Notes under the pieces: generated by a model
Told to the model about the DNA's origin: nothing
Databases searched by the model: none
Seen by the model: only the letters and a program-made list of their open reading frames with translations
Part shown: piece by piece, positions 5,756-61,978 of the stretch
How the letters are laid out: each line of letters opens with the position of its first letter
Numbering within the stretch: position 1 is the stretch's first letter
Position numbers and translations under genes: made by a program
NCBI RefSeq assembly: GCF_003097495.1
Contig: NZ_QEOP01000001.1
Location: 62,001-126,000, forward strand
Direction of reading: 5' to 3'
Source of the DNA: Amnibacterium flavum
Lineage (GTDB): Bacteria > Actinomycetota > Actinomycetes > Actinomycetales > Microbacteriaceae
Length of the DNA stretch: 64,000 nucleotides

Positions 5756-5802
5756 CCGGGTGCCCCCTCAGTTCGGACTCAGCGTATCGAGCGAGGTGCC
5801 CG

Positions 5803-5848
5803 CTTCGGGCGGTGTTCAGGGCAGAACACCACCCGAAGTGGGCGAGTC
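5803..5848 (-). repeat. Palindromic intergenic repeat, family F copy 1
   Basis: Between nagB and icd. As RNA from the minus strand the arms (5824-5838 and 5803-5817) pair along 15 bp, with one G-U. Its outer part, GACTCGCCCACTTCGGG, recurs exactly at 61897-61913 beside truA, where it again begins a hairpin. It could serve as the icd terminator, but no T-run follows. Confidence 0.6.
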
Positions 5849-5851
5849 GGG

Positions 5852-7154: not shown

Positions 7155-7211
7155 GGGCGTTCCGGGCGAACGCGCACGTTGCGGCCGGCCCCGGGCGCCG
7201 GAACGTGCGCG
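7155..7211 (+). repeat. 56-bp palindromic repeat, family R copy A (solitary)
   Basis: Begins GGGCGTTCCGGGC and ends CCGGAACGTGCGCG, with the GC-rich core GGCCGGCCCCGGGCG between. The inner arms CGCGCACGTTGCGGC and GCCGGAACGTGCGCG pair with one mismatch. It is closely related to the copies at 15331, 15456, 35631 and 36739. Unlike those it has no inverted partner nearby. Confidence 0.85.
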
Positions 7212-15330: not shown

Positions 15331-15386
15331 GGCGTTCCGGGCAAGCGCGCACGTTGCGGCCGGCCCCGGACGCCGGAACGTGCGCG
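15331..15386 (+). repeat. 56-bp palindromic repeat, family R copy B
   Basis: Same outer arm (GGCGTTCCGGGC) and inner hairpin (CGCGCACGTTGCGG with CCGGAACGTGCGCG) as the other copies. It is followed 69 bases later by copy C in the opposite orientation. Confidence 0.88.
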
Positions 15387-15455: not shown

Positions 15456-15511
15456 CGCGCACGTTCCGGGCAACGGGGCCGGCCGCAACGTGCGCGTTCG
15501 CCCGGAACGCC
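15456..15511 (-). repeat. 56-bp palindromic repeat, family R copy C (inverted)
   Basis: Read on the minus strand it begins GGCGTTCCGGGCGAACGCG and ends CCGGAACGTGCGCG. It differs from copy B at a few positions, mainly in the loop (GTTGCC against GGACGC). It ends 18 bases before the purH stop codon. Confidence 0.88.
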
Positions 15512-34457: not shown

Positions 34458-35582
34458 TCAGTTCGCGCGGTAGGGGGCTACCACGACTTCGACGCGCTGG
34501 AACTCCTTGATGTCGGAGTATCCGGTCGTCGCCATTGATCTCTTCAACGCTCCGATGAGGTTCGCTGTTCCGTCGGCGACGGGCGCCGGGCCGAAGAGAA
34601 CCTGCGAGAGCGGGGCTACCTGCCCGACCTGCACGCGGTTGCCGCGGGGCAGTTCGAGGTGGTGGGCCTCGGCGCCCCAGTGCCATCCGCCGCCGGGGGC
34701 GTCGGTCGCGCGGGCGAGGGCCGTGCCGAGCATGACCGCGTCGGCTCCGACGGCGACGGCCTTGACGATGTCGCCGCTGGTGCCGAGGCCTCCGTCGGCG
34801 ATGACGTGCACGTAGCGTCCGCCGGATTCGTCGAGGTAGTCGCGACGGGCTCCCGCGACATCGGCGAGCGCCGTGGCCATTGGCGCGTGGATACCGAGCG
34901 CCGCACGGGTGGTCGAGGCCGCGCCGCCACCGAAGCCGACGAGCACACCCGCCGCTCCCGTGCGCATCAGGTGCAGTGCGGCCGTGTAGGTGGCCGCGCC
35001 GCCGACGACGACGGGGACGTCGAGTTCGTAGATGAACTTCTTGAGGTTGAGGGGTTCGCTGCCGCGCGAGACGTGCTCGGCCGAGACGGTGGTGCCGCGG
35101 ATGACGAAGAGGTCGACTCCGGCTCCGACGACGGTGCGGTAGTGCTCCTGGGTGCGTCCGGGGCTGAGAGCGGCGGCGACGGGAACGCCGGCGGCGCGGA
35201 TCTCGGCGAGGCGGCTGGTGATCAGCTCGGGCTGGATCGGTGCGGAGTAGATCTCCTGCATGCGCGCCGTCGCGTCGACGGCGTCGAGCTCGCGGATCTC
35301 GGCGAGCTTCGCGTCGGCGTCCTCGTAGCGCGTCCACAGACCCTCGAGGTCGAGAACACCGAGGCCGCCGAGACGGCCGATCTCGATGGCGGTCGTCGGC
35401 GAGACGACGGAGTCCATGGGTGCGGCGAGCACCGGGATGTCGAAGGTGAATGCGTCGATCGACCAGGTGGTCGAGACGTCTTCGGGGTCACGCGTGCGTC
35501 GGGACGGCACGACCGCGATGTCGTCGAACGCGTACGCCCGCCGCGCCCGCTTCGAACGGCCGATCTCGAAGTCCATACTCAC
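34458..35582 (-). CDS. guaB3: GuaB3 family IMP dehydrogenase-related protein
   Basis: 374-residue TIM-barrel protein of the IMPDH/GMPR superfamily with no CBS domains. N-terminus RRAYAFDDIAVVPSRRTRDP, then PVLAAPMDSVVSP, and VIADGGLGTSGDIVKA as in true IMPDH. The active-site loop reads GFGGGAASTTR, where IMPDH has [11 protein letters not shown], so Ser replaces the catalytic Cys; the protein contains no Cys at all. The phosphate-binding parts remain. Its reaction is debated (IMPDH-like, GMP reductase-like or regulatory). Normally next to guaB in actinobacteria; here a repeat-bounded cassette lies between. Confidence 0.88.
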   Translation of the reverse strand: MSMDFEIGRSKRARRAYAFDDIAVVPSRRTRDPEDVSTTWSIDAFTFDIPVLAAPMDSVVSPTTAIEIGRLGGLGVLDLEGLWTRYEDADAKLAEIRELDAVDATARMQEIYSAPIQPELITSRLAEIRAAGVPVAAALSPGRTQEHYRTVVGAGVDLFVIRGTTVSAEHVSRGSEPLNLKKFIYELDVPVVVGGAATYTAALHLMRTGAAGVLVGFGGGAASTTRAALGIHAPMATALADVAGARRDYLDESGGRYVHVIADGGLGTSGDIVKAVAVGADAVMLGTALARATDAPGGGWHWGAEAHHLELPRGNRVQVGQVAPLSQVLFGPAPVADGTANLIGALKRSMATTGYSDIKEFQRVEVVVAPYRAN

Positions 35583-35630
35583 GGGACAACCCTACCCACC
35601 CTCCCCTGCGGATATTCCGGGCACGAGATG

Positions 35631-35686
35631 GGCGTTCCGGGCGAGCGCGCACGTTCCGGCCGGCCCCGCACGCCGGAACGTGCGCG
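35631..35686 (+). repeat. 56-bp palindromic repeat, family R copy D (left end of cassette)
   Basis: Begins GGCGTTCCGGGCGAGCG. The inner arms CGCGCACGTTCCGGC and GCCGGAACGTGCGCG are a perfect 15-bp inverted repeat around CGGCCCCGCAC. It abuts the stop codon of the next gene (35687). It is 55/56 identical to copy E in the opposite orientation. Confidence 0.9.
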
Positions 35687-36622
35687 TCACCGCGAGGTCG
35701 TGAGTCCGGCGGCCATCAGGTGACGTCCGAAAGCGTTCATGTCCTCGGCGACCGTCCATCCCCACCGGACCATTCCCCGACCCGTGGCGCGCAGACGGTC
35801 TTCGCGGACCTTCTCGACCAGCACGACGTCGGCGGTCGATTTGTCGCCGGTGAATTGTTCGCGCACGTACTTCGACCGCCCGTCGAACTCTCCGATGAGC
35901 TGGAGGTCGGGCCAGTAGAAGTCGACGATGCCCACTCGCCCGCGCGCATCGTGGATCGGCACCTGCAGCTGTGGCGCCGGGAAACCCAGGATGTGCATGC
36001 GCGCTCTGCTGAGCGACTCCCCGGGCGAACCGCTGCGACTGTCCGCGAATTCGATCGCCTTCTCGGCCGCCTTGCGCCGGGTGGGCGGCGACATCCGCTC
36101 GAGCTCCTCGTGGATGGACTGCCTCGAGGCGCCATTCGCCAGGCCCCAGTCGAGCGAGGCGACCGCGGATTCGAAGGATGTCGTGAGGGCGAGATCGATG
36201 AGGGTCCGCTCGAGTCCCGTCACGAGCAGTCCGTCCACCCTGTCGATCTCGTGCGGAGCGAGGGCGAGCGAGTGCGTCCGGATCTCCGGCTGGCCGCGGC
36301 GTCGCGAGCCGCGCGCGATGGTCACGTGCACATCGACGGGCAGGTTGCCGATGATCGGGATCCCGTGCAGCGCGGCCGCGGAGAAGTGACTGAAGACGGG
36401 CTCGATCCGCGCGTTCGCCGCGACGGCGTGAATTCGCGCGCGGTGCCGGCCCTCGGCGTCCAATGCGAGCCAGTCCGACTTCGGCATGTACGAACCGCGG
36501 CGAACCCGGACCAGCTCGTCCTTGTCTCGCAGGCGCCGGATCTCCCGATCGTCACCCCCGATCCGTTCGAGGTCGCGGGTGAGGATCAGGTTGTGGCGCA
36601 TGTTCGCCGGAAAGTCGCTCAT
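35687..36622 (-). CDS. AbiEi-type HTH protein with DUF559/VSR-like nuclease domain
   Basis: 311 residues as started at the ATG at 36622 (a second ATG at 36601 is possible; neither has a good ribosome site). N-terminal winged HTH of the AbiEi antitoxin type (REIRRLRDKDELVRVRRGSYMP, residues 27-47), then a conserved middle (FSHFSAAALHGIP, TGLERTLIDLAL), and a C-terminal region resembling DUF559/VSR endonucleases: GESLSRARM with Glu202, VDFYWPDLQLIGEFDG with Asp234, Glu245 and Asp247, Lys251, and EKVREDRLR...RWGW. No AbiEii toxin gene is adjacent. It is bracketed exactly by inverted R repeats. Function unknown. Confidence 0.8.
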   Translation of the reverse strand: MSDFPANMRHNLILTRDLERIGGDDREIRRLRDKDELVRVRRGSYMPKSDWLALDAEGRHRARIHAVAANARIEPVFSHFSAAALHGIPIIGNLPVDVHVTIARGSRRRGQPEIRTHSLALAPHEIDRVDGLLVTGLERTLIDLALTTSFESAVASLDWGLANGASRQSIHEELERMSPPTRRKAAEKAIEFADSRSGSPGESLSRARMHILGFPAPQLQVPIHDARGRVGIVDFYWPDLQLIGEFDGRSKYVREQFTGDKSTADVVLVEKVREDRLRATGRGMVRWGWTVAEDMNAFGRHLMAAGLTTSR

Positions 36623-36738
36623 GCACCGATGCTGCGCAATTCCCGGCCGAATGAACTGCACCGGTGGCCTGCTGGGAACAACCAACTGGAACCTGAACCC
36701 GGGGAGGACCTCGCCTCGCCGCCCCGGGTGATGTGCTG

Positions 36739-36794
36739 CGCGCACGTTCCGGCGTGCAGGGCCGGCCGGAACGTGCGCGCTCGCCCGGAACGCC
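36739..36794 (-). repeat. 56-bp palindromic repeat, family R copy E (right end of cassette)
   Basis: Read on the minus strand it matches copy D except for one base in the loop (CCTGCAC against CCCGCAC). It lies 117 bases upstream of the AbiEi-like gene and 30 bases from the guaB stop. Confidence 0.9.
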
Positions 36795-36824: not shown

Positions 36825-38387
<1,563 letters not shown>

Positions 38388-61873: not shown

Positions 61874-61896
61874 CCTTCGATTCTAGGGAAAGCGTC

Positions 61897-61949
61897 GACT
61901 CGCCCACTTCGGGCAGTCGTGCGCGCGCGACACTGCCGGAACTGGGCAA
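61897..61949. repeat. Palindromic intergenic repeat, family F copy 2
   Basis: Starts with the 17 bases GACTCGCCCACTTCGGG shared with 5832-5848 (complement). Its arms (about GCCCACTTCGGGCAGTCGT and ACACTGCCGGAACTGGGC) pair imperfectly over about 18 bp around GCGCGCGCG. It lies in the 105-bp divergent space between truA and the DNA ligase gene. Confidence 0.5.
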
Positions 61950-61978
61950 CTCGCAGGGGTGGTGGCCAGGATGTCTCC

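Follow-up and report, generated by a model that had tools for sequence, protein, structure and literature searches.

The window analysed here, a 64,000-nt stretch of the Amnibacterium flavum genome, carries a single gene enclosed by two copies, D and E, of a palindromic repeat termed R. The downstream copy D (35631–35686, + strand) and the upstream copy E (36739–36794, − strand) lie in inverted orientation and agree at all but 1 of 56 positions, and each contains a 15-bp perfect stem (CGCGCACGTTCCGGC/GCCGGAACGTGCGCG), as the initial annotation had described. A repeat search of the window extended this inverted pair to 61-nt arms at 98% identity, and folding of the two copies as single-stranded DNA gave z-scores of −3.0 and −3.8 against shuffled sequences. 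The gene (35687–36622, − strand), which encodes a 311-aa protein, is the sole likely gene between D and E. The end of D is the base just before its stop codon, which agrees with the earlier description of D as abutting the stop codon of the only gene inside, and the distance from its start codon to E is 116 bp. A longer open reading frame with a GTG start at 36745 would enter E; the ATG at 36622 fits the homologues. The neighbouring genes guaB3 (34458–35582, − strand) and guaB (36825–38342, − strand), both named from a reading of the open reading frames, are context and lie outside the system. Sequence inspection also revealed a relic head of an older R subfamily, GGATATTCCGGGC (35610–35622, + strand), which adjoins D; the subfamily itself was recognized from fetched loci. 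Elsewhere in the window, a second family of imperfect palindromes is represented at 5791–5849 and 61896–61954 (59-nt arms, 75% complementary), and by eye it looks like the palindromes that bracket L044 and L102, genes of the second clade.

The N-terminal two-thirds of the 311-aa protein resembles AbiEi by Pfam, PADLOC and fold. Pfam matched the AbiEi_4 winged helix alone (residues 8–46, 28.2 bits against a cut-off of 25), and the PADLOC AbiEi models matched the protein at up to 1.1e-16. An AlphaFold2 model built with 68 aligned homologues was confident (pLDDT 92.5, pTM 0.89), and Foldseek aligned it with the AbiEi antitoxin 6y8q (E 5e-6) and with Rv2827c (1zel, E 1e-4); an AbiEi-like middle part follows the winged helix. 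Matches of the same model to two nucleases were weaker: Vsr (1cw0 and 1vsr) had probabilities of 0.90 and 0.84 with E-values of 0.16 and 0.24, and I-Bth0305I (3r3p), a homing endonuclease, had a probability of 0.77 with a TM by target of 0.65 and an E-value of 0.86. This C-terminal, Vsr-like part (approximately residues 195–290; 35753–36040, − strand) bears the motif E-F-D-G-x-x-K. E202, D234, E245, D247 and K251 are invariant in all 25 genus homologues, and an alignment of 68 homologues shows no variation at E202, R206, Q220, D234, E245, D247, G248, K251, K271, R273 and E274.

Pfam DUF559 (PF04480) matched neither the 311-aa protein nor, at E≤0.001, any of the 68 aligned homologues; the relatives L044 and L116 matched it above the cut-off. 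The putative nuclease assignment is thus based on the predicted fold and the homologues and not on a Pfam DUF559 match. Of the domain architecture proposed initially, an AbiEi-type HTH joined to a DUF559/VSR-like nuclease, the residues and the AbiEi-like fold stood, the Vsr-like fold was matched with weak E-values, and the DUF559 label in the Pfam sense did not stand. A PHROGs search with the protein returned no family, an NCBIfam search returned nothing near a cut-off, and the best hit of a PDB sequence search (E 0.55) was not credible. Comparison with the orthologue in the genus genome G005 gave a dN of 0.21, a dS of 1.05 (near saturation) and a dN/dS of about 0.2. Judged from these sequence comparisons, the gene is kept under purifying selection and its active site looks intact.

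R matched at least 43 places over its whole length in the 3.57-Mb A. flavum genome (40 of 73 first-look candidates were scored), and a profile run over the window and the fetched loci found 44 full R copies, indicating that the D/E repeat is not a product of chance. D matches the 44-copy consensus at every base and E at all but one, and both belong to the five copies nearest to it; this consensus starts with GGCGTTCCGGGC and ends with GTGCGCG. Half of the copies (22 of 44) form 11 short pairs with 48–248 bp between their members, and all 11 pairs are head-out. One of these pairs lies in the window, with its left arm at 15331–15386 (+ strand) and its right arm at 15456–15511 (− strand), and a single dispersed copy lies at 7156–7211 (+ strand). 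Four longer pairs, 1.1–2.5 kb apart, are also head-out, and one of them is D/E around the nuclease gene. The spacers of the R pairs contained no piece of the gene unit, although a few spacers resemble each other. R has a single variable stem pair, and no compensatory change was detected there (Fisher p 0.51 for the 13/9/13/5 table).

The other three long head-out pairs (L059:2101–4715, L061:2222–4457 and L062:2207–4065; 1.8–2.5 kb) enclose ordinary-looking, non-homologous genes, whose identities come from a reading of the translations; these may be captured segments or coincidences. Inspection of the fetched loci by eye also showed, in at least nine of them (L054, L057, L059, L060, L061, L065, L066, L069 and L071), palindromes of the older, more degenerate R subfamily, with the head GATATTCCGGGC, up to about 120 bp from R copies, as though new copies arrived next to existing ones. 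An intact head of the older subfamily brackets the orthologous gene in G008.

Homologues of the gene were found in all nine Naasia genomes, with 2–8 matches each at E≤1e-5; these counts include one G001 gene that is in two pieces and two G002 loci that are identical. Most of them are bracketed by palindromes of a sequence other than R. At 38 genus loci (37 distinct, L088 and L096 being identical over 3.9 kb), one flank was compared with the other and the best inverted match was scored. Scores ranged from 18.5 to 70 and were 25 or more at 31 of the 38 loci. Twenty-seven loci exceeded the 99% point (31.8) of 456 mismatched-flank controls, which had a mean of 13.4, a 95% point of 17.5 and six highest scores of 30–42, some of the high-scoring controls being pairs of related loci. 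In a test with tighter flanks at 40 loci, for which the start codons were estimated, a strong palindrome (score ≥14) was present upstream in 25 and downstream in 21, whereas two stretches inside the gene had 1 and 0. The downstream palindromes started no more than 28 bp from the stop codon in 19 of 21 cases. The brackets matched better in inverted than in direct orientation in only 27 of the 40 loci, because palindromes match both ways.

The same arrangement extends beyond the genus. Eighty loci were fetched and 72 tested, with six Naasia records already counted and two short-flank loci left out; 40 of the 72 homologues were bracketed (score ≥20) and 32 were below the threshold, compared with 3 of 720 mismatched and none of 140 shifted controls. 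Among DUF559 genes of the order, 13 of 30 were bracketed and 17 were below the threshold, compared with 2 of 870 controls; the start codons here are likewise estimates, and at least 3 of these 30 loci were without a usable start and yet counted as tested. The expectation of the initial annotation that units of a gene plus inverted palindromes recur at unrelated loci was therefore borne out both in the genus and more widely. Family matches were present in at least 98 of 396 sampled genomes of the phylum (E≤1e-15). A single-protein scan of the genome contigs found no relative, whereas an alignment-based scan did. The A. flavum genome has four weaker AbiEi_4 matches besides, and L117, the one of these tested for brackets, had none (score 11).

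L088 and L096 lie on two contigs of G002 and are identical to the base over the 3.9 kb, which would reflect either a large duplication or assembly redundancy. At L101 (G001:C1:856833–857725), the homologue is in two pieces beside tandem arrays of a CCGCCGAGCGCGGTGCGTAC-like unit, and it is perhaps a decaying gene with an amplified palindrome.

To relate palindromes to genes, the nine genus genomes were queried with 12 palindromes, each from a different gene; opposite-strand rows were collapsed and the resulting counts are lower bounds. Among the matches listed, each of the 12 mapped to the genome of its own gene, the exception being three R places in G005, whose orthologue of the gene is 73% identical; this specificity holds for the matches listed, and weaker off-diagonal matches are possible. 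Seven of the 12 were dispersed (R in at least 27 places, Q7 in at least 25, Q3 in at least 24, Q10 in at least 14, Q4 and Q9 in at least 8 each, and Q8 in at least 6), and the other five had one or two places each among the matches listed. G004, none of whose own palindromes was in the query set, had no match among those listed. Within the A. flavum genome there are four genes of this kind and four palindrome families. The three further genes, at C2:1172433, about C1:1036000 and C2:1220301, had bracket scores of 30.5, 37.5 and 22.5, respectively, and their families occupy at least about 7, 15 and 11 places at E≤0.01, some of these matches being weak. Over 300 pairs, protein identity and palindrome similarity gave a Spearman correlation of 0.26, a value reached in none of 2000 permutations, but this result was set aside as confounded because the upstream stretch includes the conserved end of guaB at guaB loci.

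The position of the gene was stable while its palindromes changed. The gene lies between guaB and guaB3 in seven Naasia genomes (G000, G005, G008, G007, G001, G004 and G003; G002 and G006 were outside the comparison) and in three further records (L130, L131 and L198). Seven other records have a homologue in this neighbourhood, on the far side of glpD. No empty guaB–guaB3 site, which the initial annotation had expected in relatives, was seen among these genomes and records, and a recent insertion of the gene is ruled out by a site common to seven Naasia genomes. Between species, guaB is about 84–95% identical and the gene 40–73%, a comparison that suggests vertical inheritance and rapid divergence of the gene. 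A recent copy of the gene unit was not found; there is one close copy in the A. flavum genome. The record L130 belongs to a contig titled as an Acidobacteria MAG, in which guaB and guaB3 are 86% and 83% identical to those of the window, and the contig may be mis-binned actinobacterial DNA.

The bracket sequences differ among most Naasia species, R being common to G000 and G005. Fourteen R sites were compared with G005, of which 11 align on both sides, and the R palindromes at the sites compared were judged to be intergenic. R was absent at 6 of the 11 comparable sites, namely both window sites (the single copy at 7156 and the pair at 15331/15511), L045, L046, L058 and L069. At L045, G005 has 6 bp between the conserved ends where G000 carries an R pair, and at L069 an unrelated repeat array stands in place of R. 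The remaining five sites (L056, L060, L061, L070 and L071) carry R-like palindromes in G005, with another class at L056, L060 and L070. Eight sites were compared with G008, and R-like palindromes were found at one of them, L046. Visual comparison with G005, in sequence that has diverged, showed no evident target-site duplication. What was seen to vary between species were palindromes and palindrome pairs, not the gene. The array at the G005 orthologue of L069 (L213) consists of tandem GTGCACGGATCAGGAG-like units, and the same motif recurs in the palindromes that bracket a DUF559 gene of the A. flavum genome, L230.

These features parallel those of the REP/REPIN–RAYT systems (REPtrons) in several respects. 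In the descriptions available in two papers on these systems, REPINs are inverted doublets, the RAYT gene is bracketed, distinct single genes each have their own repeat and inheritance is largely vertical (PMC3116915, PMC3733652); REPs of two super-families carry a GTAG or CGTC tag at one end (PMC3733652). Like REPtrons, the system has short dispersed palindromes, frequent inverted doublets, a solitary gene bracketed by its own palindromes, several distinct gene–repeat pairs in one genome and vertical inheritance of the gene. Unlike RAYT, however, the gene encodes an AbiEi-HTH with a Vsr-like nuclease and not a Y1 tyrosine (HUH) transposase, and both the GTAG and the CGTC tag are missing from R. 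The Y1 transposase family PF01797 was found in none of the nine genus genomes at E≤0.01 and not in the A. flavum genome at E≤1, with search controls that matched in 6 and 10 of 14 genomes. This result rules out RAYT-driven REPs in these nine genomes and agrees with the earlier proposal that an HTH-nuclease stands in place of a transposase. The system works like a REPtron but is not one, because the Y1 transposase, the defining feature, is lacking. If architecture is weighed above the enzyme, it could fairly be placed within the REP kind.

Other known systems share individual features. The AbiEi-type part recalls the AbiE type IV toxin-antitoxin, but here the C-terminus carries a fused nuclease, and guaB3 and guaB flank the gene with no adjacent AbiEii; a toxin-antitoxin pair is ruled out at this locus because an adjacent partner is lacking. 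The Vsr and I-Bth0305I endonucleases and the DUF559 and MTES_1575 families are linked to the protein by the weak fold match and by the DUF559 matches of L044 and L116, whereas its Foldseek E-values above 0.1, its E-F-D-G-x-x-K motif, the lack of a DUF559 match of its own, its fusion to AbiEi and its tie to dispersed palindromes set it apart. Inverted ends, short non-coding pairs and presence or absence between species are also seen in MITEs and insertion sequences with terminal inverted repeats. Unlike these, the unit contains no known transposase, the AbiEi–Vsr gene being alone inside, shows no evident target-site duplication and stays at one locus in the seven Naasia genomes. Searches of the open literature for REP together with DUF559, or for DUF559 with inverted repeats and transposition, found nothing, and no description of such a nuclease–palindrome partnership was found there, although one may exist among the subscription papers and preprints, most of which lie outside it. 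No repeat-mobilising engine with such a fold is known to us, and the chemistry involved would have to be different.

The observations are probably explained, in our assessment, by a REP-type (REPIN/RAYT-like) partnership built on an unrelated PD-(D/E)xK-type nuclease in place of the RAYT transposase, a reading held with some reserve. Its likelihood is lowered by the five of 12 palindromes with one or two places each among the matches listed and by the R-like palindromes of G005 at 5 of the 11 comparable sites. The 32 of 72 homologues and 17 of 30 DUF559 genes below the bracket threshold, the preference for inverted matches at just 27 of 40 loci, the lack of compensatory change in the R stem, the weak E-values of the Vsr match and the three long R pairs around other genes also count against it. 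A solitary, vertically inherited gene would supply a protein with an AbiEi-like DNA-binding part and a Vsr/I-Bth0305I-like nuclease of the PD-(D/E)xK type. The AbiEi-like part would read the protein's own palindrome, two reference copies of which bracket the gene, and the Vsr-like part would nick or cut that palindrome, perhaps in an extruded hairpin or cruciform form. Repair by the host would then copy the palindrome to other sites, giving single copies and head-out pairs. To our knowledge, a nuclease of this fold does not join strands, and host repair or recombination would therefore have to complete the copying. As protein and palindrome diverge together, each gene would come to have its own palindrome family. 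We are evenly divided on the broader proposal that actinobacterial AbiEi-HTH proteins with Vsr/DUF559-type nucleases are the engines of a large and hitherto unrecognised class of REP-like repeats that arose independently of RAYT. In this view each gene founds and maintains its own palindrome family, with cut-and-repair copying in place of transposase chemistry, and remains at an old locus, whereas its repeats are replaced from one species to the next.

The strongest competing explanation is a DNA-binding nuclease that serves the host, since the fixed locus and the purifying selection fit it too. The palindromes would then be operators, chromosome marks or self-tags used in repair, in domain organisation or in telling self from foreign DNA; the brackets would autoregulate the gene, and the copies would have spread slowly by other means and been kept by selection. 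AbiEi antitoxins bind inverted repeats at their own promoters, which together with the AbiEi-like part of the protein favours such a role, as do the shared position in seven Naasia genomes and the dN/dS of about 0.2. A replicating repeat nevertheless fits better than a conserved mark with the absence of R from more than half of the comparable sister-species sites and with a palindrome sequence that is almost wholly changed between most species, and autoregulation does not require palindromes on both sides of the gene, one of them at the stop codon. We regard a host-serving role as unlikely.

The initial annotation had read the locus as an autonomous mobile or homing-like element with the palindromes as its recognition ends. 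In that case the gene and its end palindromes would move as a unit, and the pairs and singles would be deletion derivatives. Bracketed paralogues at different loci, head-out pairs that resemble miniature elements and the fold similarity to the homing endonuclease I-Bth0305I are in line with it, and the recurring units and the dispersed, genome-specific palindromes uphold part of the mobile-element reading. The gene itself was not seen to move, only palindromes and pairs vary, and the claim of a freely moving cassette is not supported by the finding of the gene at guaB–guaB3 in seven Naasia genomes and three further records, which comes close to the outcome named beforehand as refuting it. The spacers of the R pairs are without gene remnants, and the sole identical pair in the genus, L088/L096, is identical far past the palindromes. 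An autonomous cassette is accordingly the weaker, and in our judgement an improbable, account, since the gene is old at its site and no recent unit copy was found. Ordinary intergenic repeats or terminators that bracket the gene by accident would be in keeping with R copies that are GC-rich hairpins and with the three long R pairs around non-homologous genes. However, bracketing is a repeated feature of the gene family and involves different sequences, the palindromes are specific by genome, and the shifted controls rule out chance or terminator repeats, so that an accidental arrangement has very little to be said for it. The REP-type partnership driven by the gene's own nuclease thus remains the preferred reading.

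A candidate repeat engine with a fold unrelated to the RAYT transposase follows from this reading, and the partnership of such an enzyme with a small repeat family is apparently undescribed. The results suggest that some of the proteins now carrying an AbiEi-antitoxin or DUF559 label act neither as antitoxins nor in repair. With many gene–palindrome pairs of different sequence at hand, two problems become testable: by what route a palindrome could be dispersed by a nuclease that lacks strand-transfer chemistry, and in what way a DNA-binding region and the site it recognises diverge together. If the specificity is confirmed, the rules of recognition could be worked out from this naturally occurring collection of proteins paired with their sites.
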